Origin: Bacillota bacterium
GTDB lineage: Bacteria; Bacillota; Clostridia; Christensenellales; CAG-138
DNA length: 33,738 nucleotides
Direction of reading: 5' to 3'
Assembly: GCA_016286445.1 (NCBI GenBank)
Contig: JAEESS010000025.1
Coordinates: 1 to 33,738 of the forward strand
The notes below the pieces were generated by a model. That model made no database searches. It was given only the letters and a program-made list of their open reading frames with translations, and was not told the DNA's origin. The translations under genes were made by a program, and so were the position numbers. Shown piece after piece: positions 3,073 to 30,846 of this stretch. Numbering within the stretch: the stretch's first letter is position 1; every line of letters begins with the position of its first letter.

Positions 3073-4128
3073 ATGGAACGACCCGATCACGATCTTGCAT
3101 TCATGCTGCAGTATGAAAACATCGCCTGGTACGAGGACGGCGCGGTCCGTATTCTGGATCGTCGCTGCTATCCGCGCACAGTGTCGTTTGTTACCTGCAG
3201 AACGCACGGCGAAGTGGCGCAGGCGATCGCCGATATGGTGACGCAGAGCGCGGGACCGTATCCCGCGGCGGCGATGGGCATGGCGCTCGCGGCGTACGAA
3301 TGCCAAAACGAAAGCGAAGAGAAGCAGCGCGCGTTTCTCACCGCGGCGGCGGAACGCATCAGCACCGCGCGTCCGACGACCGCAAAGCGCATGGCGCGGG
3401 TGTGCGAAACGATGCTTGCTGCGGCGGAGACGGCGTGGAGATCCGGCGCATCCGTACCCGAAGCGATCAAACGCCGCGCGATCGAGGCGAACGACAGCCG
3501 ATACCGCAAGATCGCGAAGATTGCAGCGCATCTGGTCGACAAGTTCCCGGACGACGGCACGATCCTCACGCAGTGCTTTGCGGAGACGATCGTCGGCATG
3601 ATGCTGCGCGAATCGAAGGAGCGGGGGAAGCGTCTGCGCATCTTCTGCCCCGAAACGCGTCCGTATTTTCAGGGCGCGCGGCTCACCGCAACGGTGTGTT
3701 ACGAAATGGGCTTTGACGTGACCGTCATCACGGACAATATGCCGGCGTTTGTCATGCAGCGCGAGCGTGTGGACGTGTTCACCTCGGCGGCGGATGCGAT
3801 CACAATGGACGGATACGTCGTCAACAAGGTCGGCACGTTCCAGATCGCGATCGCGGCAAAGCATCTCGGCGTGCCGTATTATGTTACCGGCGTGCCGGAC
3901 ACGGTGCATCCGACGATCGGCGACGTGCAGATCGAGTTTCGCGATCCCGCGTTCGTGCTCGAAGCGATGGGCGTGAAGACCGCGCGCGACGGGGTCAAGG
4001 GCTATTATCCGGCGTTCGATATCACGCCGCCGGAGCTCGTGACCGGCGTCGTGACCGACAAGGGCATTTTGAGTCCGTACCGGCTTTCCGATTACGGCGC
4101 GCGCGACGCGTACGAGGTCGTTGTATAA
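3073..4128 (+). CDS. MtnA/eIF2B-alpha family sugar-phosphate isomerase-like protein
   Basis: A 351-residue protein, the length of S-methyl-5-thioribose-1-phosphate isomerase (MtnA). The N-terminus (IAWYEDG..ILDRR), the RPTTA segment near 100, ETRP at 194-197 followed by FQGARLTA, D241 in the ADAI motif (the MtnA catalytic Asp position), NKVGT at 251-255 and the PAFDITPPELVTGVVTDKG block all match the family. Two catalytic motifs are altered: the RGAPAIG loop reads QSAGPYPAA and the THCNTG motif reads TQCFAE, so the catalytic Cys (C168) is kept but the NTG is lost. It may isomerise another aldose 1-phosphate, such as ribose 1,5-bisphosphate or a deoxyribose compound, rather than the methionine-salvage substrate. 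No mtn genes are nearby; a LOG hydrolase and a nucleoside phosphorylase are. GGAGG six bases before ATG fixes the start. Confidence 0.8.
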   Translation: MERPDHDLAFMLQYENIAWYEDGAVRILDRRCYPRTVSFVTCRTHGEVAQAIADMVTQSAGPYPAAAMGMALAAYECQNESEEKQRAFLTAAAERISTARPTTAKRMARVCETMLAAAETAWRSGASVPEAIKRRAIEANDSRYRKIAKIAAHLVDKFPDDGTILTQCFAETIVGMMLRESKERGKRLRIFCPETRPYFQGARLTATVCYEMGFDVTVITDNMPAFVMQRERVDVFTSAADAITMDGYVVNKVGTFQIAIAAKHLGVPYYVTGVPDTVHPTIGDVQIEFRDPAFVLEAMGVKTARDGVKGYYPAFDITPPELVTGVVTDKGILSPYRLSDYGARDAYEVVV

Positions 4129-4147
4129 CAGAAAGGAAACGATACAT

Positions 4148-4489
4148 ATGGTAGTGGTAAACGTATACGAACAGTATTTTGCGGCGGACTGCATTGCAAA
4201 CAGCATTCACCGGCACGCGGCGCTGGTCATGCTGATCGCGACGTCCGAAAACGGCACGGTGCGTTATGAAGCGGCAGTGACGTTCTTCCCGCACATCGAT
4301 GAGAGCGACTTTGCGGTCTCCTACGACGCGTACTATTCCGACGTGCTGTACGAGGCGCCGGGCAGACGTTCGAGAAAGCGCGAAGCGATGCTCATGGAGA
4401 CCTTCCGCGAGGATATCGACGCGCTCTGCAAGCAGGCGGGCGGCACGGTCTATTGGGACAAGCCGCTCAAAGAAGCGCGCAGAGGCTGA
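4148..4489 (+). CDS. Small protein of unknown function
   Basis: A 113-residue soluble protein that I do not recognise. It starts at an ATG preceded by AAAGGAAA, 19 bases after the MtnA-like gene, so the two are probably one transcript. The sequence has alternating hydrophobic strands (MVVVNVYEQYF, LVMLIATSENGTVRYEAAVTFFP), a charged middle with HIDESDF, a basic RRSRKRE patch and a C-terminal helix (LMETFREDIDALCKQAG). That is consistent with a compact alpha/beta domain. No signal peptide or membrane segment. A three-hairpin repeat module begins five bases after its stop. Confidence 0.7.
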   Translation: MVVVNVYEQYFAADCIANSIHRHAALVMLIATSENGTVRYEAAVTFFPHIDESDFAVSYDAYYSDVLYEAPGRRSRKREAMLMETFREDIDALCKQAGGTVYWDKPLKEARRG

Positions 4490-4494
4490 CGCCT

Positions 4495-4529
4495 CGGTCG
4501 GTTGAAAAGACTTTCAACCGACCGGTTTT
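4495..4529 (+). terminator. Terminator hairpin of repeat copy A
   Basis: A 13-bp perfect stem (4495-4507 with 4512-4524, loop AGAC) followed by GTTTT. It starts five bases after the preceding stop codon. The same position and form recur at 21997 and 30663. Confidence 0.75.
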
Positions 4530-4613
4530 CAGCTTTCGCCTGTCATACTTCGTATTCCCGGGCGGCTAAGCCCTTTGGAGTCAAATTCACCGCGCATGTC
4601 GCTGAATTTGACG
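4495..4613 (+). repeat. Three-hairpin intergenic module, copy A
   Basis: Three elements in fixed order: a terminator stem (4495-4524); a CGCC...GGCGGC stem (4537-4566) with an inner ATAC/GTAT pairing; and GTCAAATTCA (4580-4589) paired with TGAATTTGAC (4603-4612) around a core CGCGCATGTCGC. The same three elements occur at 21997-22159 and 30663-30783. Compared with copy B, the second and third stems differ in bases but stay paired. Confidence 0.85.
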
Positions 4614-4658
4614 GATAACACTTTATCATTCGTTTGCTGTGACGGAAGCGCCGTAGGA

Positions 4659-7999: not shown

Positions 8000-10900
8000 T
8001 TATCTGCTGAACAGGACCTCGGCGTCCGGACCGTAGTACTGTGCGCGCTGTGCGTTGGCGTCGCCGCCTGCCCAATGGTGCGCCGTGCGGTAAGCATAGG
8101 AGAACAACTCCTTCAGCGTAACATTCCTGTCGCCGTTGCTGTCTGCGGGCATCGCTGTGCTTGTGTAGCTGATGCGCACACCGCTCGGATACTTGCAAGC
8201 CATGCCCTTGATGATCGCCGCGGTAAACGCGCCCTGCCGATAGCCCGAGCCGTCGAAGTAGCCGTCAAGGGAGGTCTGCGTCTTGGAAGCGGCGGTGATC
8301 ACGATGAATTTGCTCTTCTTGAACTCGCCCAGTTTGGCGTCCTTCGAGCGCACGCCTGTTTCGAGATCGTAGCCGGCGAAGGCGTCGATGACCTCGTTGT
8401 TGAACGCATCCAGCACATTTTCGCCGTTCAAAGACTTGTCGATCGTCGCGCCGCTGTGGCAGCTGTCGAGGATGACGATGACGCGCCCGTTGACTTTGTT
8501 GAGCTCGTTGGCGAGCATTGACAGCGGGATATAGGTATTATCGACGCCGACGAGTCCGCCGAGAACGTTGTTGTCATTCGAGCTCATGCCGTGTCCGGAG
8601 TAATAGAACAGGGAAACGCTGTCCTTGGTCGTATCCTTCGCAAGACCCCGGATGTCGGCAATGATCGCGGCAGCATATGCGTTTGAATATGCCATCGTAA
8701 CATATTTGTTCTTCAGACCAAACAGCATGCCCATCATGGATTGCGCATCGTTGACGCACCCATACAACGGGCTGCTTGCATACTTGTTCTGACCGATCAG
8801 CAGCGCGCGGTATTTCGGCATCGATCTTGCCGTCACGATGTTCGACCAGCCGCCGTAATACGTCATACCTTCAAACTTTTGATACGAACGGACGCGGAAG
8901 TAGTAAGATGTCCCGGTATACGAGTTGCTTTTCAGACCGGTGACGACACGCTGCGTCGCAGACGGGCTGCCGACCGTGACAAGCTGTACGTTCTGCGTAA
9001 ACTGAATGTTCGTCGCGCTCTGGATCTGGTAACCGGTAAAGAGCGAGCTCGGCTGCCATTTCACCGTGACCTTCTCAGTACCAAGCGTTGCGGAGGTCGC
9101 CGTGCGCGTGGTGATGCGCACGGTCGTTTTCAGCGGACCGACAAGACCGAGATTGAAGTTGCCGGAGTCGTTGTTGACGTTGCCGCCGATTGCAGCGCCG
9201 GAGACAGGATCGGTGCGGCGCGTAAAGTACGCTTTGACGCCGTACTGATACCGCGTGCCGGCATAGACCTTGTGATTGGCGTCGGCGCCGTCCGTGTAGA
9301 TCGTTGCGGTCGTGTTGTCCCACCGCGCGAACGTCGTCCAGCCGTTCGTGGTGCTGCTCCACGCTCTGCGGTAGATGACGTAGCCCGCCGCGCCTTCGAC
9401 CGGCTCCCAGGTCACTTTAATGCCGTCCGCGGTGTTTTCGACCGCGGTCGCCGTCGTCGCGGGCAGGTAGATCTTGAACGACCCGCGGCAGGTTCCGGTC
9501 AGCCCGTTTTTGAACGTGACGAACACATAGCCCGTTCCGGCGTTCGTGTTCTCCTTATATTCGTAATCATAATTTGCCGGATCGACCGTGCTGCCGTCCG
9601 TCTTGTTTATCACCGTGAACCGCGGCGTCTGCGCGCTGCCGTTCGCGATCACATACGCCGTCGCGCCCTTGAACTGCACGTCCTCGGCGCTCCACTCGAC
9701 GGCTGCGTCAAGCGTAAGGATCGGAATATCCTCGACCGTTTTGGTCTGCGTTTCAAACGCCGGATTGGCAAACGTCGCCGTATAGGTCGTTTCGCCCGGC
9801 TCGGTATAGGTCGCGGGCTTTGTCACTTCGCTTGTCGTCCGGACCGTTTCGGTTTCGACGTGCGACGCGTCGTTGGCACAGACGCGCGAGGCGGTGACGC
9901 TCGTATTGTCGCCCGCCCAGACATAGGTCGGCTCGCCCCACGCATGTCCGGTAGCGGGGATTGCTTTTTCCTCACGGCTCAGCTCCTTGCCGCAAACTGC
10001 GCAGTATATGACTTCTTCGGCATATCCGTCCTCGGTGCAGGTCGGCGCAGTTCCGTTTTCATATACCGGCTCGCCGGGCGTATGATCCCCCATCGGAAGC
10101 TCCTTCTGTTCGCGGCTGAGTTCCTTACCGCAGACCGTGCAGCATACGACTTCGTCATAATGCCCGTGATCAATACATGTCGACGGGACTTCGTTTTCAT
10201 AGGACGGATCCCCGGGAACGTGCGGATTGACCGTGACGTCGTAGGTCGTTGTTAAGGATTTGAACGTGACCGTCAGCGTATGTACGCCGGTTTCGCCCGC
10301 TGCATAGCCGCTTACCATATCAACGGTGATCGGTTCTTCTTCCTCAATATCGGGGTCGTAGCGGACGGTGAGCGTACCGCCCGTGGTATCGAGCGGCTGA
10401 TCGAGACAGTAAGTGCATTTGTCCGGCAGCGTTTTGATCTCGATCGAATACGGCATAAGATAGTGCCATGTCGCATTGATCAGACGCTCGTTATTGCTGC
10501 TGCCGATCGAAATTTCGTCGCGCATGCTTTTTGTGCCGTAATAGTAAACATCTTTCAAGCGAGCAGTGCATTCCGCAAAGGCGTCGTTTGAGATGCTTGT
10601 CAGACTGCCGGGGAGGGTGATGGATGTCACATTTTGGCATCGATAAAACGCGCAGATAGCAATGGTGGTTACGCCGTCGGGGACCTCATAGCTTGTTCGG
10701 GGAGAACCTGCAGGATATAGTTTCAATGTTTTCAGGTCTTTTGAATATACAACGCCGTCTACATCGCAAAAGGACGCGTTTCCTTCGTCAACAAATATAT
10801 CCGTCAGACCGGTACATCCGTAAAAAGCAGTGCTTTCGATGTAAGATGCATTTGCCGGTATTGTAATTTGTGCGAGTGAATTGCAATTCCCGAATGCGTA

Positions 10901-11596
10901 TTGCCTTATTTCTGCTGCGCCGCTGCCGAGCGTGACGGATTGTAAATTGAGGTTATTATAGAAACCGTAATCAGGTATGATCGAAACACGATCCGGGATC
11001 GTGATTTCCTGCAGATTGCATTTATAGAAAACCCGGGTGCCCAACGAGGTCAGATTGTCCGGAAGTGTAATGCTTGTCAGAGAATAACAGCAATTGAAAG
11101 CATCGGATCCGATTTTTGTTACGGTTTTCGGGATTGAGACGTCCGCCAGATTCGAGCATCCTCCAAACGCTGAATTTCCAATGCTCGTCACGCCGTTTCC
11201 GATCACGACCTTTTTGATTTGCGTCAGGTAAGCGCTCCACGGCTGCGTATTCTGGGTAAAGTTGTTCATCTTTCCGCTGCCGGTGATCGTCAGTGTGCCG
11301 GTGGATTCCGTAAACGTCCAGGTCAGATTGTCCCCGCAGCTGCCGGAGGCGTCCGAGGACGTTTCGGGAATGTCGATCGCGCCTTCCGGCTCGTCCGAAA
11401 CGGCAGGGGGAAGGAACGCATACGGTTCTTCGTCCGGCGTCTCTGCGTCGGGCAGGTCGATCTCTTCCGTCTCGTCGGACAGAATATCTCCATCCGTCGG
11501 GAGCGCGTCGGGTTCGTCGTCTGCGGCGCCGAACGGGATCGACGTGAACAGCAGAACAAGACCGAGGAGAATGGCAAGCAGGCGTTTTTTCATCAT
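8000..11596 (-). CDS. Secreted leucine-rich-repeat protein with C-terminal caspase-like peptidase
   Basis: A 1198-residue exported protein. Signal peptide 1-26; acidic linker 27-84; BspA/LRR_5-type leucine-rich repeats about 85-380 (repeated ITLP..TSIG..AF..C); an Ig-like bacterial domain about 385-457; two Cys-paired repeats (TC..G, CCTVCGKELSREQK and CAVCGKELSREEK) at 458-560; two fibronectin-III-like domains about 700-800 and 820-920; and a caspase-like (C14, clan CD) domain 926-1198 with catalytic His1002 in YYSGHG and Cys1046 in DSCHSG. An EF-hand-like loop (D1152-E1163) sits inside the peptidase and suggests calcium activation, as in metacaspases. It has no sortase motif or membrane anchor, so it is likely released. 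ATG at 11596 follows GGGAG; a farther upstream ATG lacks a ribosome site. Substrates are unknown; it may process proteins or bind surfaces in the gut. Confidence 0.88.
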   Translation of the reverse strand: MMKKRLLAILLGLVLLFTSIPFGAADDEPDALPTDGDILSDETEEIDLPDAETPDEEPYAFLPPAVSDEPEGAIDIPETSSDASGSCGDNLTWTFTESTGTLTITGSGKMNNFTQNTQPWSAYLTQIKKVVIGNGVTSIGNSAFGGCSNLADVSIPKTVTKIGSDAFNCCYSLTSITLPDNLTSLGTRVFYKCNLQEITIPDRVSIIPDYGFYNNLNLQSVTLGSGAAEIRQYAFGNCNSLAQITIPANASYIESTAFYGCTGLTDIFVDEGNASFCDVDGVVYSKDLKTLKLYPAGSPRTSYEVPDGVTTIAICAFYRCQNVTSITLPGSLTSISNDAFAECTARLKDVYYYGTKSMRDEISIGSSNNERLINATWHYLMPYSIEIKTLPDKCTYCLDQPLDTTGGTLTVRYDPDIEEEEPITVDMVSGYAAGETGVHTLTVTFKSLTTTYDVTVNPHVPGDPSYENEVPSTCIDHGHYDEVVCCTVCGKELSREQKELPMGDHTPGEPVYENGTAPTCTEDGYAEEVIYCAVCGKELSREEKAIPATGHAWGEPTYVWAGDNTSVTASRVCANDASHVETETVRTTSEVTKPATYTEPGETTYTATFANPAFETQTKTVEDIPILTLDAAVEWSAEDVQFKGATAYVIANGSAQTPRFTVINKTDGSTVDPANYDYEYKENTNAGTGYVFVTFKNGLTGTCRGSFKIYLPATTATAVENTADGIKVTWEPVEGAAGYVIYRRAWSSTTNGWTTFARWDNTTATIYTDGADANHKVYAGTRYQYGVKAYFTRRTDPVSGAAIGGNVNNDSGNFNLGLVGPLKTTVRITTRTATSATLGTEKVTVKWQPSSLFTGYQIQSATNIQFTQNVQLVTVGSPSATQRVVTGLKSNSYTGTSYYFRVRSYQKFEGMTYYGGWSNIVTARSMPKYRALLIGQNKYASSPLYGCVNDAQSMMGMLFGLKNKYVTMAYSNAYAAAIIADIRGLAKDTTKDSVSLFYYSGHGMSSNDNNVLGGLVGVDNTYIPLSMLANELNKVNGRVIVILDSCHSGATIDKSLNGENVLDAFNNEVIDAFAGYDLETGVRSKDAKLGEFKKSKFIVITAASKTQTSLDGYFDGSGYRQGAFTAAIIKGMACKYPSGVRISYTSTAMPADSNGDRNVTLKELFSYAYRTAHHWAGGDANAQRAQYYGPDAEVLFSR

Positions 11597-11665
11597 TCGT
11601 ACTCCCTTTGATCGCAACCGGCTTTCGGATCGGACGGTTCTTACGATCATATAATCTCATCATTT

Positions 11666-18263: not shown

Positions 18264-20069
18264 ATGGAAAAAACAAAGAAAAAAGGACCCGGCATCAGGC
18301 ATCTCAAACCGTGCGTGAAGGGCTATGTCACGCCGTCGGTGCTTACGCCGGTGCTGATCGTATTCGAGGTCGCGCTGGAGATCCTGATCCCGCTTCTCAT
18401 GGCGGCGCTCGTCGACGGCGGTCTGTACCGGGTGGACAAGTTTCAGCTGCAGGGTGTGATCTCTCACCTGCCGTACCGGAACAATCTGCAGTTCGTGCTG
18501 TGGGTCGGCGGGCTGATGGTGCTTGCGTCGCTTCTTTCACTGCTTTGCGGCGCGCTCGCAGCGCGCACGTCGGCGGTCGCGTCGATGGGCTTTGCGAAGA
18601 ATCTGCGCGAACGGATCTTCGGCAAGATCCTGCAGTTCTCATTTAAGAACACCGACCGGTTCCAGACCTCGTCGCTGGTCATCCGCGCGACGACGGACGT
18701 CAACAACCTGCAGAACACCTACCAGATGTTCCTGCGGATGATGTTCCGCGCACCGATCATGATGGTGCTTGCGGCGGTCATGTCGTTCCGCATCAACGTG
18801 AAGCTGTCGTACATCTTCGTGATCGCGCTGCCGCTCGTGCTGACGCCGATGCTGCTGTTTATGTTCATCGGACGCAAGCGATTCAAGATGATGTTCACAA
18901 AGATGGACGCCATGAACAGCGCCGTGCAGGAGGACCTGATCGGCATGCGCGTGGTCAAGTCGTTCGTGCGCGGCTCGCATGAGAACGGCAAGTTCCGCGA
19001 CAGCGCCGACGATCTGATGCGGACGCAGATCTACGCGCAGAAGCTCTTTTCGTTCGCGAACCCGATCCAGCTCGGCGTGATGTGGGGCGCGACGATCCTG
19101 CTGTGGCTGTTCGGCGGACGGATGAGCATTTCGCCGGACGGGAACCTGCCCATCGGCGAGCTGACCGCGCTGATCGGTTACGCCACGCAGGTCATCGCTT
19201 CGCTGCAGATGGTCTCGATGTTCCCGCTCATGCTTTCGAGAATGCGCGCGTCCTTGGACCGCATCAACGAGGTGTTTGAGGAGCAGATCGATATCGAATC
19301 GCCCGAAAGCGACCTCGTCGTCGAGACCGGCGAGATCGAGTTCGATCACGTTGACTTCTCGTATTCCGGCAATCCGGAGGTTCTGAACCTCAAGGACGTC
19401 AGCCTGCATATCCTGCCGGGGCAGACGGTCGGCGTCATCGGCGGCACGGGTGAGGGCAAGTCGACGCTCGTGCAGATGATCCCGCGGCTTTACGACGTGC
19501 TTGCGGGCGCGGTGCGCGTGTCGGGGCACGACGTGCGCGAATACAGCCTGAAGGCGCTGCGCGACGGCGTTTCGATGGTGCTGCAGAAGAACATGCTGTT
19601 CTCGGGCAGCATCCGGGAAAATATGCGCTGGGGCGATCCGAACGCCACGGACGAAGAGATCCGCGAGGCGTGTAGAATCGCGTGCGCCGACGGCTTCGTT
19701 TCGGCGTTCCCGGACGGGTACGACACCGACCTCGGACAGGGCGGCTGCAACGTGTCCGGCGGGCAGAAGCAGCGTCTGTGCATCGCCCGCGCGCTGCTCA
19801 AGAAACCGAAGATCCTGATCCTCGACGACTCGACGAGCGCGGTCGACACCGCGACCGAGGCGAAGATCAGGGACGGCCTGAAAAAGCTTACCGACATGAC
19901 CAAGATCGTCATCGCGCAGCGGATCACATCCGTCATGGACGCGGATCAGATCATCGTCATGGAGCACGGCAGGATCTCCGACGTCGGCAGACACGCCGAG
20001 CTGCTTTTGCGCAGCGAGATCTACCGCGAGGTCTATGAATCGCAGGTCAGAGAGGAGGCGAACGCGTAA
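18264..20069 (+). CDS. ABC exporter half-transporter, degenerate ATP-site subunit
   Basis: A 601-residue fusion of a six-helix ABC_membrane domain (about 25-340) and an ATPase domain (about 345-595). Walker A is GGTGEGKST near 390; the signature is NVSGGQKQR; Walker B is ILILDDSTSAVD with Asp where the catalytic Glu should be; the switch His is Gln (IAQRITSV). These changes are those of the non-catalytic half of heterodimeric exporters such as TM287/TM288 or BmrC/BmrD, so this subunit should pair with the next gene. Likely substrate: drugs or lipids, unknown. The start at 18264 has AGGGGTGG about 11 bases upstream. The stop overlaps the start of the next gene by one base (TAATG). Confidence 0.9.
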   Translation: MEKTKKKGPGIRHLKPCVKGYVTPSVLTPVLIVFEVALEILIPLLMAALVDGGLYRVDKFQLQGVISHLPYRNNLQFVLWVGGLMVLASLLSLLCGALAARTSAVASMGFAKNLRERIFGKILQFSFKNTDRFQTSSLVIRATTDVNNLQNTYQMFLRMMFRAPIMMVLAAVMSFRINVKLSYIFVIALPLVLTPMLLFMFIGRKRFKMMFTKMDAMNSAVQEDLIGMRVVKSFVRGSHENGKFRDSADDLMRTQIYAQKLFSFANPIQLGVMWGATILLWLFGGRMSISPDGNLPIGELTALIGYATQVIASLQMVSMFPLMLSRMRASLDRINEVFEEQIDIESPESDLVVETGEIEFDHVDFSYSGNPEVLNLKDVSLHILPGQTVGVIGGTGEGKSTLVQMIPRLYDVLAGAVRVSGHDVREYSLKALRDGVSMVLQKNMLFSGSIRENMRWGDPNATDEEIREACRIACADGFVSAFPDGYDTDLGQGGCNVSGGQKQRLCIARALLKKPKILILDDSTSAVDTATEAKIRDGLKKLTDMTKIVIAQRITSVMDADQIIVMEHGRISDVGRHAELLLRSEIYREVYESQVREEANA

Positions 20070-21991
20070 TGCCGCCGAGAGGAAGCTCCTTCAACAGCAA
20101 GATGGGCGGAAAGCGCGCCGAAAAGCCGCTGAAAACGCTCCTTCGCCTGTTCCGCTATTTCAAAAACTGCACCGGGATCCTGATCGTTTCGATCATTTCG
20201 ATCCTTGCGTATTCCGCCGCGTCCAACTATGCGGTACTGATGACGAAGCAGCTCGTCAAGGTGCTCGAAGCCGGGATCGGCGCGGACATGGCAAAGTATG
20301 CCGCGCTGCTCATCGGCATGGCGATCCTGTACGCGATCGCCGTCGTCACCAACTTCCTGCTGAACCGGCTGATGCTCTCCTGCTCCGCGCGCGTCATGTG
20401 CGCGCTGCGCAAGGAGATGTTCGAGAAGATGCAGTCGCTGCCGATCTCGTTCTTCGACGGACGTACGCACGGCGAGCTGATGAGCTATTACACCAACGAT
20501 ACCGAGGCGGTCAACGAGCTGCTGCACCATTCGATCACGCAGATGCTGATCTCGATCTCCTCGCTGGTCTTCGTGTTCGGGATGATGGCGTCCCTGTCCA
20601 TCCCGGTCGTGTTCATCATGATCTGCATGGGCGTGACCGTGTTCTACGTCATGCGCGGCGTCACGAAAAAGAGCCGCCGCAACTTCAAAAAGCAGCAGTA
20701 TGAGCTGGCGGCGGTCAACGGCTACATCGAGGAGATGATGGAGGGGCAGAAGGTCGTCAAGGTTTTTACGCACGAGGACAAGGCGAAGGCGGGCTTCAAG
20801 GTCCACAACGACGAGCTCTGCAAGGTCGCGACCGACGCGAACACCTACGCAAGCATCGTCGGTCCGCTGATGAACAACATCTCCCATATCTTTTATGCGA
20901 TCACCTGCACCGTCGGCGTACTGCTGGCGGCGCCGGTCCCGGGAGAGGATTTCCTGCTCGAAAACACCTGGTTCGCCTCGCATCAGGCGTTCCTGGTGGA
21001 GGGCAGCGCCCTGATCGCGTCCCTGCAGTTCGTGCGGCAGGTTTCTAACCGCATTTCGCAGATCTCGCAGCAGTTCAACTCGATCCTCCTTGCACTTGCG
21101 GGCGCGGAGCGCATCTTTGCGCTCATAGACATGCCCGCCGAGGTCGACGAGGGCACGGTCACGCTGGTCCGCGTCGAGGAGAAGGACGGAACGCTCAAAG
21201 AGACCGACCGCCGCACCGGGCATTGGGCGTGGAAGCGCGGGGAGGAACTCATCCCGCTGCGCGGCGAGGTGCGCTTCACCGACGTCGATTTCAGCTATGA
21301 CGGCAAAAAGCAGGTGCTCACCGACGTCACGCTGTACGCGCATCCGGGGCAGAAGATCGCGTTTGTCGGCTCTACCGGCGCGGGCAAGACGACGATCACG
21401 AACCTGATCAACCGCTTCTATGACATCGCGGACGGCACGATCACCTACGACGGCATCCCGGTCCGCGAGATCAAAAAGAACGCGCTCCGAAGCTCCCTCG
21501 GCATGGTGCTGCAGGACACGCATCTGTTCTCCGGCACGGTCATGGAAAACATCCGCTACGGCAGACTCGACGCCACCGACGAGGAGTGCATCGAAGCGGC
21601 AAAGATCGCAAACGCGGACTTCTTCATCACGCATCTGCCCGAGGGCTATCAGACGCAGCTCGTCGCGGACGGCGCGAACCTCTCGCAGGGACAGCGGCAG
21701 CTCATCGCGATCGCAAGAGCCGCGGTCTCCGACCCGCCGGTGTTGATCCTCGACGAGGCGACGAGCTCGATCGATACCCGCACCGAGAAGCACATCGAGA
21801 AGGGCATGGACGCGCTGATGCACGGACGTACGGTGTTCGTCATCGCGCACCGGCTCAGCACGGTCCGCAACAGCGACTGCATCATGGTCCTCGAAAACGG
21901 CAGGATCATCGAACGCGGCGACCATGACGCACTGCTGAAGCAAAAGGGCAAGTATTACGAGCTCTGCACCGGCACGTCTGAACTGAGCTAA
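20069..21991 (+). CDS. ABC exporter half-transporter, catalytic subunit
   Basis: A 640-residue fused permease-ATPase. A basic N-terminus (1-22) leads to six membrane helices (about 35-340), an insertion rich in charged residues (about 370-415) and the ATPase domain. Walker A GSTGAGKTT is near 435, signature NLSQGQRQL, Walker B LILDEATSSID with the catalytic Glu near 565, and switch His in IAHRLSTV. The complete site makes it the active partner of the upstream degenerate subunit. The loop between helices 5 and 6 (APVPGEDFLLENTWFASHQAF) is long. GAGGAGG lies ten bases before the ATG. Repeat copy B starts five bases after its stop. Confidence 0.92.
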   Translation: MPPRGSSFNSKMGGKRAEKPLKTLLRLFRYFKNCTGILIVSIISILAYSAASNYAVLMTKQLVKVLEAGIGADMAKYAALLIGMAILYAIAVVTNFLLNRLMLSCSARVMCALRKEMFEKMQSLPISFFDGRTHGELMSYYTNDTEAVNELLHHSITQMLISISSLVFVFGMMASLSIPVVFIMICMGVTVFYVMRGVTKKSRRNFKKQQYELAAVNGYIEEMMEGQKVVKVFTHEDKAKAGFKVHNDELCKVATDANTYASIVGPLMNNISHIFYAITCTVGVLLAAPVPGEDFLLENTWFASHQAFLVEGSALIASLQFVRQVSNRISQISQQFNSILLALAGAERIFALIDMPAEVDEGTVTLVRVEEKDGTLKETDRRTGHWAWKRGEELIPLRGEVRFTDVDFSYDGKKQVLTDVTLYAHPGQKIAFVGSTGAGKTTITNLINRFYDIADGTITYDGIPVREIKKNALRSSLGMVLQDTHLFSGTVMENIRYGRLDATDEECIEAAKIANADFFITHLPEGYQTQLVADGANLSQGQRQLIAIARAAVSDPPVLILDEATSSIDTRTEKHIEKGMDALMHGRTVFVIAHRLSTVRNSDCIMVLENGRIIERGDHDALLKQKGKYYELCTGTSELS

Positions 21992-21996
21992 AGCTT

Positions 21997-22033
21997 CGGT
22001 CTGTCGAAACGGATTTCGACAGACCGGTTTTTT
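21997..22033 (+). terminator. Terminator hairpin of repeat copy B
   Basis: A 13-bp perfect stem (21997-22009 with 22014-22026, loop CGGA), then GTTTTTT. It ends the ABC operon. Confidence 0.9.
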
Positions 22034-22159
22034 CAGTACCGCCTAAAATGCTGCGCATTTCCGGGCGGCGGTCCACTTCGTTACAGCGGCAGATCGCGCG
22101 CTTCCCGCGCGAACCATCTGCAGGATGTCAAATCCGTCGCACATGTCGCCGGATTTGAC
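21997..22159 (+). repeat. Three-hairpin intergenic module, copy B
   Basis: Terminator stem (21997-22026); ACCGCC/GGCGGT stem (22038-22072) with inner AAATGC/GCATTT pairing; a 54-base insert with a GCGCG hairpin that the other copies lack; then GTCAAATCCG/CGGATTTGAC (22127-22159) around a core CGCACATGTCGC. The third stem keeps pairing although its last three pairs differ from copies A and C. Confidence 0.85.
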
Positions 22160-22216
22160 GGATTTGTGGTCTGCTCTTTTCGCGTGCGCGACGACACTTA
22201 TAAAGCTCTGTCAATG

Positions 22217-24602: not shown

Positions 24603-24733
24603 GATTCTCCGGCAGGAGAATCTTCCTGAACGTTCCCGAAGGGAACATATCACACGCCGAAGGCGTATATCACATCCCGAAGGGATATATCACGTTCCGC
24701 ATCTGAGGAACATATCACTGCGCCGCCGGCGCA
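24603..24733. repeat. Array of mini-hairpins joined by ATATCAC
   Basis: A GATTCTCC/GGAGAATC hairpin (24603-24622) is followed by stems at 24632-24646, 24654-24666, 24674-24686 and 24694-24711, each followed directly by ATATCAC, and a fifth stem at 24719-24733 without it. Stem sequences differ (GTTCCC, ACGCC, ATCCC, GTTCC, TGCGCC) but each pairs with its own partner; three have a GAA loop. The array lies in the 3' region of the GntR operon, 20 bases past its stop. Confidence 0.9.
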
Positions 24734-29718: not shown

Positions 29719-30660
29719 ATGATGCTTCCGGTCTTCTTATTCACGGGCTTTCTCGACGCGGGCAAGACGACGTTCTTGCAGTCGATGCTCGAGGATCCCG
29801 GCTTCAACGAAGGACAGCGCACGCTGGTCATCCTGTGCGAGGAGGGCGAGGAGGAGCTTGTGCCTTCGCGCTTCTCGATCAACAACGTCACGATCCACAC
29901 GGTCGACAGCCCCGCGGAGCTGACGCCTGCGAACCTCTCGCTGTGGCAGCGCAAGGCGGCGGCAACGCGGGTCATGATCGAGTACAACGGCATGTGGCAG
30001 ATGAACGATCTCTTTGACCGCCTGCCGGACAACTGGGGCATCGCGCAGGAGACGATGATGGTCGACGCGAGCTCGATCGCGGCGTTCAACGCGAACATGC
30101 GGCAGCTCGTCGTGGACAAGCTGACCACCGCAGAGCTCGTCATCTTCACGCGCGTTGAGCCGGAGCAGGACAGAATGGAGCTGCACAAGCTTGTGCGCGG
30201 GATCTCCCGCGGGGCGCAGATCGTGTACGATCTCACCGACGGCACGAGCGTGGAGGACGACATCGAGGATCCGCTGCCGTTCGATCTGAACGCCGACGTT
30301 GTCGAGATCGACGACAAGGACTATGCGCTCTTTTACCGCGATCTGGTCGACGAGCCCGCAAAGTATGAGGGCAAGACGGTCCGCTATAAGGGTCTCTGCG
30401 CGAACAACATGCGCCTGCCGAAGGACACGTTCCTTGCCGGGCGGCACATCATGACCTGCTGCGAGGCGGACATCGCCTACTGCCCGCTCGTGTGCAAGTG
30501 GGACATGGCAAAGTCCGTCAAGCACAAAAGCTGGGGGATCGTCGAGGGCACGATCAACGTCAAGTTCTCGAACATCTACGGCAAAAAGGGTCCGGTGCTC
30601 ACCGTACATTCTTTCCAACCCGCAACCGAACCGGAGCAGCCGGTTGCGACGTTCTATTGA
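29719..30660 (+). CDS. CobW-like GTPase fused to a DUF1980/TIGR03943-like domain
   Basis: A 313-residue protein. The N-terminal part (1-200) is CobW-like with a changed P-loop GFLDAGKTT, but the CxCC motif is missing (VILCEEGEEEL instead). The C-terminal part (about 205-313) has KYEGKTVRYKGLC, a GRHIMTCCEADIAYCPLVCKW block and a closing beta region; this pattern resembles the C-terminal domain of the YcgQ/TIGR03943 family, which is linked to zinc or CobW genes in Firmicutes. So one gene joins a GTPase to what is usually a separate membrane-linked partner. Metal handling with the upstream GTPase is likely. GGAG lies nine bases before the ATG. Repeat copy C begins two bases after its stop. Confidence 0.85.
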   Translation: MMLPVFLFTGFLDAGKTTFLQSMLEDPGFNEGQRTLVILCEEGEEELVPSRFSINNVTIHTVDSPAELTPANLSLWQRKAAATRVMIEYNGMWQMNDLFDRLPDNWGIAQETMMVDASSIAAFNANMRQLVVDKLTTAELVIFTRVEPEQDRMELHKLVRGISRGAQIVYDLTDGTSVEDDIEDPLPFDLNADVVEIDDKDYALFYRDLVDEPAKYEGKTVRYKGLCANNMRLPKDTFLAGRHIMTCCEADIAYCPLVCKWDMAKSVKHKSWGIVEGTINVKFSNIYGKKGPVLTVHSFQPATEPEQPVATFY

Positions 30661-30662
30661 TT

Positions 30663-30699
30663 CAGTCTGTCGAAAATAAGTTTTCAACAGACTGGTTTT
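30663..30699 (+). terminator. Terminator hairpin of repeat copy C
   Basis: A 14-bp stem with one mismatch (30663-30676 with 30681-30694, loop TAAG), then GTTTTC. Confidence 0.75.
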
Positions 30700-30783
30700 C
30701 AGTTCCCGCCTATGCAGACAAGCTGCACCGGGCGGCGGAAACTGCAAGGTGTCAAATTCACCGCGCATGTCGCTGAATTTGAC
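30663..30783 (+). repeat. Three-hairpin intergenic module, copy C
   Basis: Terminator stem (30663-30694); CCGCC/GGCGG stem (30706-30735) with inner TGCAG/CTGCA; and GTCAAATTCA/TGAATTTGAC (30751-30783) around core CGCGCATGTCGC. Order and spacing are as in copy A. Confidence 0.85.
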
Positions 30784-30813
30784 GGATTGAGAACCGTATC
30801 TCACATTTGACGT

Positions 30814-30846
30814 AAAAAAGCGCTTCCGCGAAGGAAGCGCTTTTTT
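30814..30846. terminator. Bidirectional terminator between convergent operons
   Basis: A 14-bp perfect stem (30814-30827 with 30833-30846) with A-run on one side and T-run on the other, so it works both ways. It serves the anti-sigma gene (minus) and is a backup for the CobW pair. Confidence 0.9.

Follow-up and report, generated by a model that had tools for sequence, protein, structure and literature searches.

The YPAL (RU-2) element of Yersinia is a sequence of about 168 bp with internal inverted repeats that is known from filled and empty sites; its target duplications of 3–26 bp lie at or beside dyad symmetry, and it is thought to affect upstream transcripts (PMC2229807). The insertion sequence IS1272 carries its own transposase gene and has as targets stem-loops of unrelated sequence, so that recognition would be by shape; its insertions replace the stem-loop and leave no duplication, and the authors also sketch an alternative, pathway b, with duplication of the entire stem-loop (PMC5678879). 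Here we describe a repeated palindromic sequence from the Christensenellales, dispersed among gut bacteria, that is likely to be a non-autonomous insertion element, one for which terminators, in the form of DNA hairpins, would be the targets and would be duplicated on insertion.

The window analysed (33,738 nt, positions 1 to 33,738 of contig JAEESS010000025.1, assembly GCA_016286445.1) contains three copies of this sequence (Table 1). The preliminary description had placed three copies of an intergenic module 2–5 nt after plus-strand stop codons, and both the sequence and the covariance-model matches agree with this, the gap being 0–3 nt when the model starts are used. The conserved core that it had noticed in hairpin 3 was also recovered, with three matches in the window (up to three mismatches) against a mean of 0.18 in shuffled sequence. 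Its three-hairpin layout holds for the window copies, but the full element has a fourth hairpin, and the window copies end before the right part in which it lies; besides, copy 2 carries a 49-nt insert. This insert is a nested second palindromic repeat (CTTCGTTACAG..), also present in L024 and L025, whose placement varies among element copies. Elsewhere on the minus strand of the window there is a Gut-1 RNA (RF01706; positions 24642-24720, 68.5 bits), a known Rfam sRNA family, and an ORF of 1216 aa (8000-11650) that combines BspA-type leucine-rich repeats (LRR_5) with a caspase-like Peptidase_C14 domain and Big_3.

Table 1. Element copies and neighbouring features in the window.
Feature	Position	Strand	Parts or basis
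Gene ending before copy 1 (site B)	4121..4489	+	No Pfam match; stop codon ends at 4489
Element copy 1, right part lost	4493..4619	+	R1 match, 121 bits, E 3.8e-28; sequence. Hairpin 1 ~4495-4524; T-tract 4526-4529; hairpin 2 ~4532-4571; linker 4572-4579; hairpin 3 4580-4612
ABC transporter gene ending before copy 2	20069..21991	+	PF00664, PF00005; stop codon ends at 21991
Element copy 2	21995..22166	+	R1 match, 76.5 bits, E 1.2e-16; sequence. Hairpin 1 ~21997-22026; hairpin 2 ~22038-22072; hairpin 3 22127-22159
Palindromic extra insert within copy 2, between hairpins 2 and 3	22073..22121	+	49 nt; counterparts in L024 and L025
Gene ending before copy 3 (site A)	29719..30660	+	cobW and DUF1980_C matches; stop codon ends at 30660
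Element copy 3	30661..30790	+	R1 match, 133.6 bits, E 2.2e-31; sequence. Hairpin 1 ~30663-30694; hairpin 2 ~30700-30744; linker 30745-30750; hairpin 3 30751-30783
Native terminator-like hairpin of the upstream gene, retained 3' of copy 3	30814..30846	+	Matching hairpin soon after the stop codon in empty orthologous sites, e.g., G013, G004

Alignment of the downstream sequences revealed that the complete element measures approximately 200 nt and comprises four hairpins: hairpin 3 is followed by CGTTCTTCCT, which is conserved, and then by a fourth hairpin (GCGCG-KCTACAM-CGCGC), and the right end resembles GCTCG. Unpaired cores are conserved in hairpin 2 (GCCT/CCGGGCGGC) and in hairpin 3 (CCGCRCATGTCGC), and the G+C content is mostly between 0.43 and 0.67. 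At this size it is too small to encode a transposase and is probably gene-less; a short ORF that would start at the ATG in hairpin 3 was inspected visually and discarded, its stop codon being unconserved. In copies from the sister genus the T-tract that follows hairpin 1 is replaced by GGCTCCGC; when 86 copies were divided into two groups by eye, the 7 nt after hairpin 1 contained on average 1.3 T in the 23 sister-genus copies and 3.9 T in the 63 others, therefore a terminator is not a constant part of the element. A further version occurs in two genomes of another family, G165 and G360. Its hairpin 2 retains GCCT..CCGGGCGGC and its hairpin 3 often has CACCGCRCATGTCGCTG, the core being a variant one in many copies, and this version is framed by CAGnTCGTCAAAAAAC and TTTGACAGTCTG; its ends, CAG..GTCAAAAAA and TTTGACAGTCTG, are like terminal inverted repeats, while visual inspection of the alignment of the window's family revealed none. 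Five copies of this version (L320, L323, L327, L333 and L336) carry an insert of about 100 nt within the loop of hairpin 3.

A covariance-model search of the genome and its relatives, as proposed in the preliminary description, brought out further copies. The model R1, built from an alignment of nine genome copies (A1), gave 33 matches at E ≤ 0.1 in the assembly of the window (2.65 Mb, 109 contigs), 13 of them with at least 76 bits; several of the weaker ones are opposite-strand hits at places already matched, or extend over hairpin 1 alone. Among the 13 strong copies, C71:30661 and C41:2899 follow genes that are 99% identical and would seem to be a single site, present in two strains that share the bin. 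On contigs C71, C41 and C55 of this assembly (G000), the genes before copies 3 and 1 are each found twice, with 99% and 94% identity; two closely related strains appear to have been binned together, which inflates the copy counts. At E ≤ 0.001, R1 matched 20 of the 23 genomes of the window's genus, with no match in G005, G017 and G018, and outside the genus it matched one of 18 other genomes (G023), with eight matches. A collection scan with the hairpin-3 pattern found at least 80 loci (of 114 stretches) among the matches listed; the titles of these 80 loci refer to MAGs of Clostridia, Clostridiales, Bacillota or Christensenella, many of them ruminant-derived, and the sole genus-named title is Christensenella sp. 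UBA3792, which NCBI places in the Christensenellales.

A second model, R2, covering hairpins 2-4 (alignment A4) and built from the version of the window's family, was searched against 396 genomes of the order and matched 22 at E ≤ 1e-5. Twelve of the 22 belong to families other than that of the window, although some of these matches are doubtful, such as L258 and L263, where the hairpin-3 core was not seen by eye. The G165/G360 version is homologous to that of the window's family, given that R2 matches it with E values down to 6.6e-13. Many G165 contigs begin approximately 120–220 nt before the right end of the element, a pattern that would arise where the assembly was interrupted at copies almost identical to one another. 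The exact core pattern, searched across the class, matched six of 391 genomes, five of them outside the order with one or two matches each, and a reversed control matched two genomes; this gives no evidence of a wider spread, and the pattern also misses diverged versions. Carriage by phages, plasmids or viruses was considered and set aside, as none of those collections gave a match to the element, the viral contigs included (0 matches). The element matched no Rfam family: the only match in the window was the Gut-1 RNA mentioned above, ten loci searched at the gathering threshold gave none on the element, and ten divergent loci searched at E ≤ 0.5 gave two matches, both beyond its span. A description of the element was not found in the literature searched, the coverage of which omits most subscription papers and preprints, so that an earlier description may exist.

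The comparison of orthologous sites showed that the presence of the element is variable. The site A gene is present in all 23 genomes of the genus, in 24 loci, one of which (L201) was excluded because it runs off its contig. Seven of the 23 readable loci, from six genomes, are filled, 15 are empty, and one (G010) keeps a remnant that corresponds to the first arm of hairpin 1. In the empty sites of G013, G004, G001 and G008, the stop codon is followed after some 9–20 nt by a terminator-like hairpin, and other empty sites, for instance those of G003 and G020, have no such stop-proximal hairpin; in all seven filled loci a terminator-like hairpin is found 3' of the element. Among the site A copies, hairpin 2 differs wholesale between species. 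Site B, with 19 loci, has one filled, one with a remnant (G006) and 17 without the element; the second copy of this site in the same bin shows the stop codon, 3 nt and then the next ATG. The patterns at both sites point to repeated insertion or loss, and the element is real, mobile, dispersed and insertion-polymorphic at orthologous sites.

The position of the element with respect to genes was surveyed in 109 copies (85 from a set of 86, one 5'-cut copy having been dropped, plus 24 selected ones), or 97 once near-duplicates were removed, and a simple custom gene caller assigned a left-hand gene to 89 of these loci. This gene lies on the same strand in 69 of the 89 loci, and in 59 of the 69 its stop codon is within 11 nt of the element start (an overlap of up to 12 nt was allowed). 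The next gene lies at a median distance of 125 nt, and always more than 11 nt, past hairpin 3; left and right distances are not measured alike, since the full right end lies about 70 nt further on. The remaining 20 loci are antisense to the left-hand gene, and four of them have a start codon within 20 nt; they include five similarly arranged loci between two genes that we take to be rplK and nusG (the start MAKKITGYVK was read at three of them), as well as two that adjoin tmRNA, L103 (by Rfam) and L123 (by sequence). These antisense loci count against a strict terminator target, and the location right after stop codons, accurate for the window, does not extend to the whole family. The term mobile terminator, one of the options in the preliminary description, comes near to the case: the element is dispersed and insertion-polymorphic, and of 57 same-strand copies, 29 have a hairpin 1 that passes a simple terminator filter. 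By the same filter, 21 of these 57 copies have a second terminator-like hairpin on their right, against 4 of 285 shuffles; the 57 copies are those outside the sister-genus group and were not de-duplicated.

Another aspect is the level at which the pairing of the stems is maintained. Four stretches were folded, with z values of −4.1, −6.1, −3.9 and −2.4, the last one equalled by 4 of 200 shuffles. The paired base changes noted in the preliminary description were confirmed, since 21 of 42 pairs differ on both sides among nine genome copies. An alignment of 82 distinct rows from named relatives (A3) extends this result: 94.3% of the cells pair, both sides vary in 35 of the 42 pairs, and covariation scores 0.497, compared with 0.140 after shuffling and no more than 0.109 after sliding of the partners. 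None of 500 shuffles reached any of five pairing measures, so the pairing greatly exceeds chance, with the reservation that A3 was fitted to the covariance model and is biased toward pairing.

Selection on a one-stranded RNA would tolerate G-U over A-C cells, and G-U cells that are no commoner than A-C cells favour palindromy at the DNA level. Across 40 of the 42 pairs of A3, 63 G-U and 67 A-C cells were counted among 3090 (binomial P 0.79), the cells of related sequences being not independent. The count omits the doubtful terminal pair of helix 1 (51 U-G or G-U and 12 unpaired cells) and the topmost pair of hairpin 3 (unpaired in 33 rows); if both are restored, G-U rises to 114 and A-C increases by up to 45, to 112. 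Moreover, the G-U share of the element is 2.1%, versus 7.2% (21/292) in 14 tRNAs of the same loci (Fisher P 9e-6), a control that is usable for the G-U share only, given that the program marks allowed pairs alone and A-C cells are impossible in it. These results favour pairing maintained at the DNA level rather than by selection on folded RNA, and they weaken the suggestion of such a selection made in the preliminary description. The DNA-level route may be selection on DNA hairpins, hairpin-templated repair or exchange between copies.

The RNA reading of the element is consequently disfavoured. A structured RNA of the 3' UTR, selected as a fold for mRNA stability or regulation and repeated by chance, would agree with the strong folds, with the stop codons that precede most same-strand loci, with unpaired cores conserved across families and with the T-tract after hairpin 1 in copies of the window-genus type; we regard it as improbable in view of the G-U and A-C counts, the empty sites of relatives, the antisense copies and the sister-genus hairpin 1, which has no T-tract. 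If the mobilising enzyme reads DNA shape, a general warning would follow from this case: strong covariation in stems, the usual sign of a functional RNA, can have its origin in mobile DNA palindromes. Counting G-U against A-C cells is a cheap test that separates the two.

The surprising part of these observations is the duplication of a hairpin. In G165 and G360 the element sits between two copies of a hairpin, which abut the element ends in most copies read, and the same sequence of ~200 bp lies between unrelated hairpins at many loci. Fourteen insertions were bracketed with a script that required an intact right end and enough flank, and hence selects for recent insertions. A flanking repeat of at least 13 bp is present in each of the 13 from G165/G360 and absent from the one in G075. 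The repeats range from 13 to 38 bp (at least 20 bp in 12 of 13), with a maximum of 9 bp in 182 mismatched left/right pairings. Their length varies because the repeat is mostly one whole terminator-like hairpin: it is self-complementary in 10 of the 13 copies, where at most 5 of 1000 shuffles were as good; self-complementarity is weak in L327 (reached by 27 of 1000 shuffles), and in L323 and L313, in which identity is limited to the first half of a hairpin, it is weak or absent. A TTTT follows seven of the 13 right copies and none of the 13 left ones. Among 12 further copies bracketed by eye in G165, G360 and other genomes, repeats of at least 13 bp were seen in three, L300 (24 bp), L264 (19 bp, from G308, a genome of the window's own family) and L265 (14 bp); L257 has an imperfect repeat and the other eight have none. 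At 105 loci from the window's genus, the sister genus and a few others, repeats of at least 19 bp were found in only three, the control of 2000 mismatched pairs reaching at most 12 bp; L102 and L131 have identical flanking sequence, L102 being followed by a second, degenerate element downstream, and the repeat of L086 is itself a dispersed repeat. No left hairpin copy was seen in the window's genus, and the flanking duplication was observed in relatives and not in the window's copies.

From the flanking copies in G165 and G360, we infer that a stem-loop is the target. The stagger that most transposons cut at their target sequence is of fixed length, in contrast with a repeat that varies up to 38 bp, which suggests that the shape of the DNA, and not its sequence, determines the target. 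It is highly improbable, in our judgement, that hairpins at gene ends were duplicated first, as tandem terminators, and that element-like sequence was then exchanged between them by recombination; gene conversion would indeed give the wholesale differences in hairpin 2 at site A, and the sites analysed in G165 and G360 are filled ones, but one and the same ~200-bp sequence is found between unrelated hairpins in two genomes, and the empty A sites of G013 and G004 in the window's genus show a single hairpin. An ordinary MITE, that is, an internally deleted IS with a short target duplication, whose bias for gene ends would result from selection against other insertions, is somewhat unlikely. It would account for the filled and empty sites and for the TIR-like ends in G165/G360, which are partly common to an ISL3 remnant; it does not predict flanking repeats of variable length that mostly amount to one whole hairpin and abut the element. 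If they are taken as MITE-type target duplications, repeats of at least 13 bp are present in 13 of 13 script-bracketed insertions from G165/G360 and in 3 of 12 copies bracketed by eye, and repeats of at least 19 bp in 3 of the 105 loci mentioned above.

The enzyme that would mobilise the element was sought among several transposase families, none of which could be linked to it in the loci covered. The remnant just mentioned is a degraded ISL3-type gene of G360 (PF01610, 225 bits, one internal TGA) that starts with the shared CAGACTGTCAAAGAA beside a hairpin; it is broken and has no flanking duplication. ISL3 matches are restricted to fragments in 2 of the 23 genomes of the window's genus, and among 60 genomes of the family of G165, ten match, G165 and G396 not among them. 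ISL3 was rejected as a partner, as ten other ISL3 loci have no matching end that faces the gene; at one ISL3 locus (L351) an end-like stretch lies by a hairpin and is oriented away from the gene. IS1272 belongs to the IS1182 family. A model of this type (NF033551) matched 4 of 18 genomes, above the cut-off in one, and none of the IS1182-family loci read in these 18 genomes has ends like those of the element; the copy in G021 was discarded given that its ends differ by eye, the longest direct and inverted repeats between its flanks are 12 and 8, and the element is absent from those loci.

Y1_Tnp matches are present in 12 of the 23 genomes of the genus, Y1/RAYT-like proteins were noted at L237, L239, L240 and L242, and mobilisation by a REP-associated (Y1) transposase, as for elements of the REP/BIME type, was accordingly considered. 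We find this barely plausible: R1 gave no match at E ≤ 1 in the fetched flanks of 17 Y1 loci, G017 has a strong Y1 match and no element match, and G012 has 19 element matches and no Y1, although these MAGs are incomplete. To our knowledge, single-strand insertion by Y1 is not expected to duplicate a whole hairpin. Y1/RAYT mobilisation was thus set aside, its loci having no linkage to the element. The genus has other dispersed intergenic repeats, formed by GTAGGGG plus a palindrome, which may be the REP elements of these proteins. The mover of the element may be a transposase that was lost, unassembled or unsearched.

The reading that we favour, a non-autonomous element that inserts at terminators, would work as follows. 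The complete element would be a mobile DNA of ~200 nt formed by four palindromes with short conserved unpaired cores, and, judging from the filled sites of G165 and G360, where the order of events has to be deduced, it would insert at intrinsic terminators with duplication of the hairpin. A palindrome can present the same stem-loop on both strands, and an enzyme acting in trans would recognise this target as a hairpin or a cruciform. If the element were joined at the foot of the two opposed stem-loops, the stagger would equal the length of the hairpin, so repair would duplicate the whole hairpin and the duplication would be as long as the hairpin is. A full terminator would be left at the far end, and the gene would still terminate. 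With respect to the window's genus, we infer a similar mode of insertion: the element would have entered the same zone at gene ends and would have lost its right end, together with any left copy of the hairpin, and its first palindrome would now serve as a terminator directly after the stop codon. A DNA hairpin recognised by a protein, one of the options raised in the preliminary description, would form part of this explanation.

A broader proposal is advanced tentatively, as a possibility somewhat short of being probable: that the Christensenellales harbour a family of small transposable elements mobilised by an enzyme that recognises an intrinsic terminator by its DNA hairpin. By cutting each strand at the foot of its stem-loop, this enzyme would duplicate a single terminator hairpin, whatever its length; the gene would retain a working terminator, and the paired changes in the element would arise at the level of the DNA hairpin. 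If true, this would be a case in nature of the pathway with stem-loop duplication that was drawn, but not shown, for IS1272. An enzyme that reads shape would explain how the element settles beside many genes without harm, and would provide a naturally occurring means of directing insertions to gene ends by shape.

As for other small repeats, MITEs and the pneumococcal SPRITE, BOX and RUP are also short, dispersed and hairpin-forming, and SPRITE is terminator-like; our element differs from them in that it is not A+T-rich and has no recognised terminal inverted repeat in the window's genus (PMC10969869). It resembles MITEs in its short dispersed copies, too small for a transposase (~200 nt, 13 strong ones in its own assembly), and, as regards ends in common with an autonomous element, only the degraded ISL3-type remnant of G360 shares CAGACTGTCAAAGAA with it. 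REP sequences associated with Y1 (RAYT) transposases are likewise dispersed extragenic palindromes; in comparison with them, the element is much longer, has four hairpins in a fixed order and is not found beside Y1 genes (PMC2817692, PMC3733652). IS1272 would share the stem-loop target, and the mode proposed for our element corresponds to pathway b of its authors; however, IS1272 has a transposase gene and replaces the stem-loop, whereas the element is small and, in relatives, flanked by hairpin copies (PMC5678879). YPAL, compared by description only, has a similar size, is not A+T-rich, and shows internal inverted repeats, filled and empty sites and duplications of variable length at dyad symmetry; it occurs in other taxa, and the duplication in the relatives studied here is mostly one whole hairpin of up to 38 bp (PMC2229807). 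YPAL of Yersinia may therefore be a parallel case, and the element is closest to YPAL and to the insertion sequences that target stem-loops.
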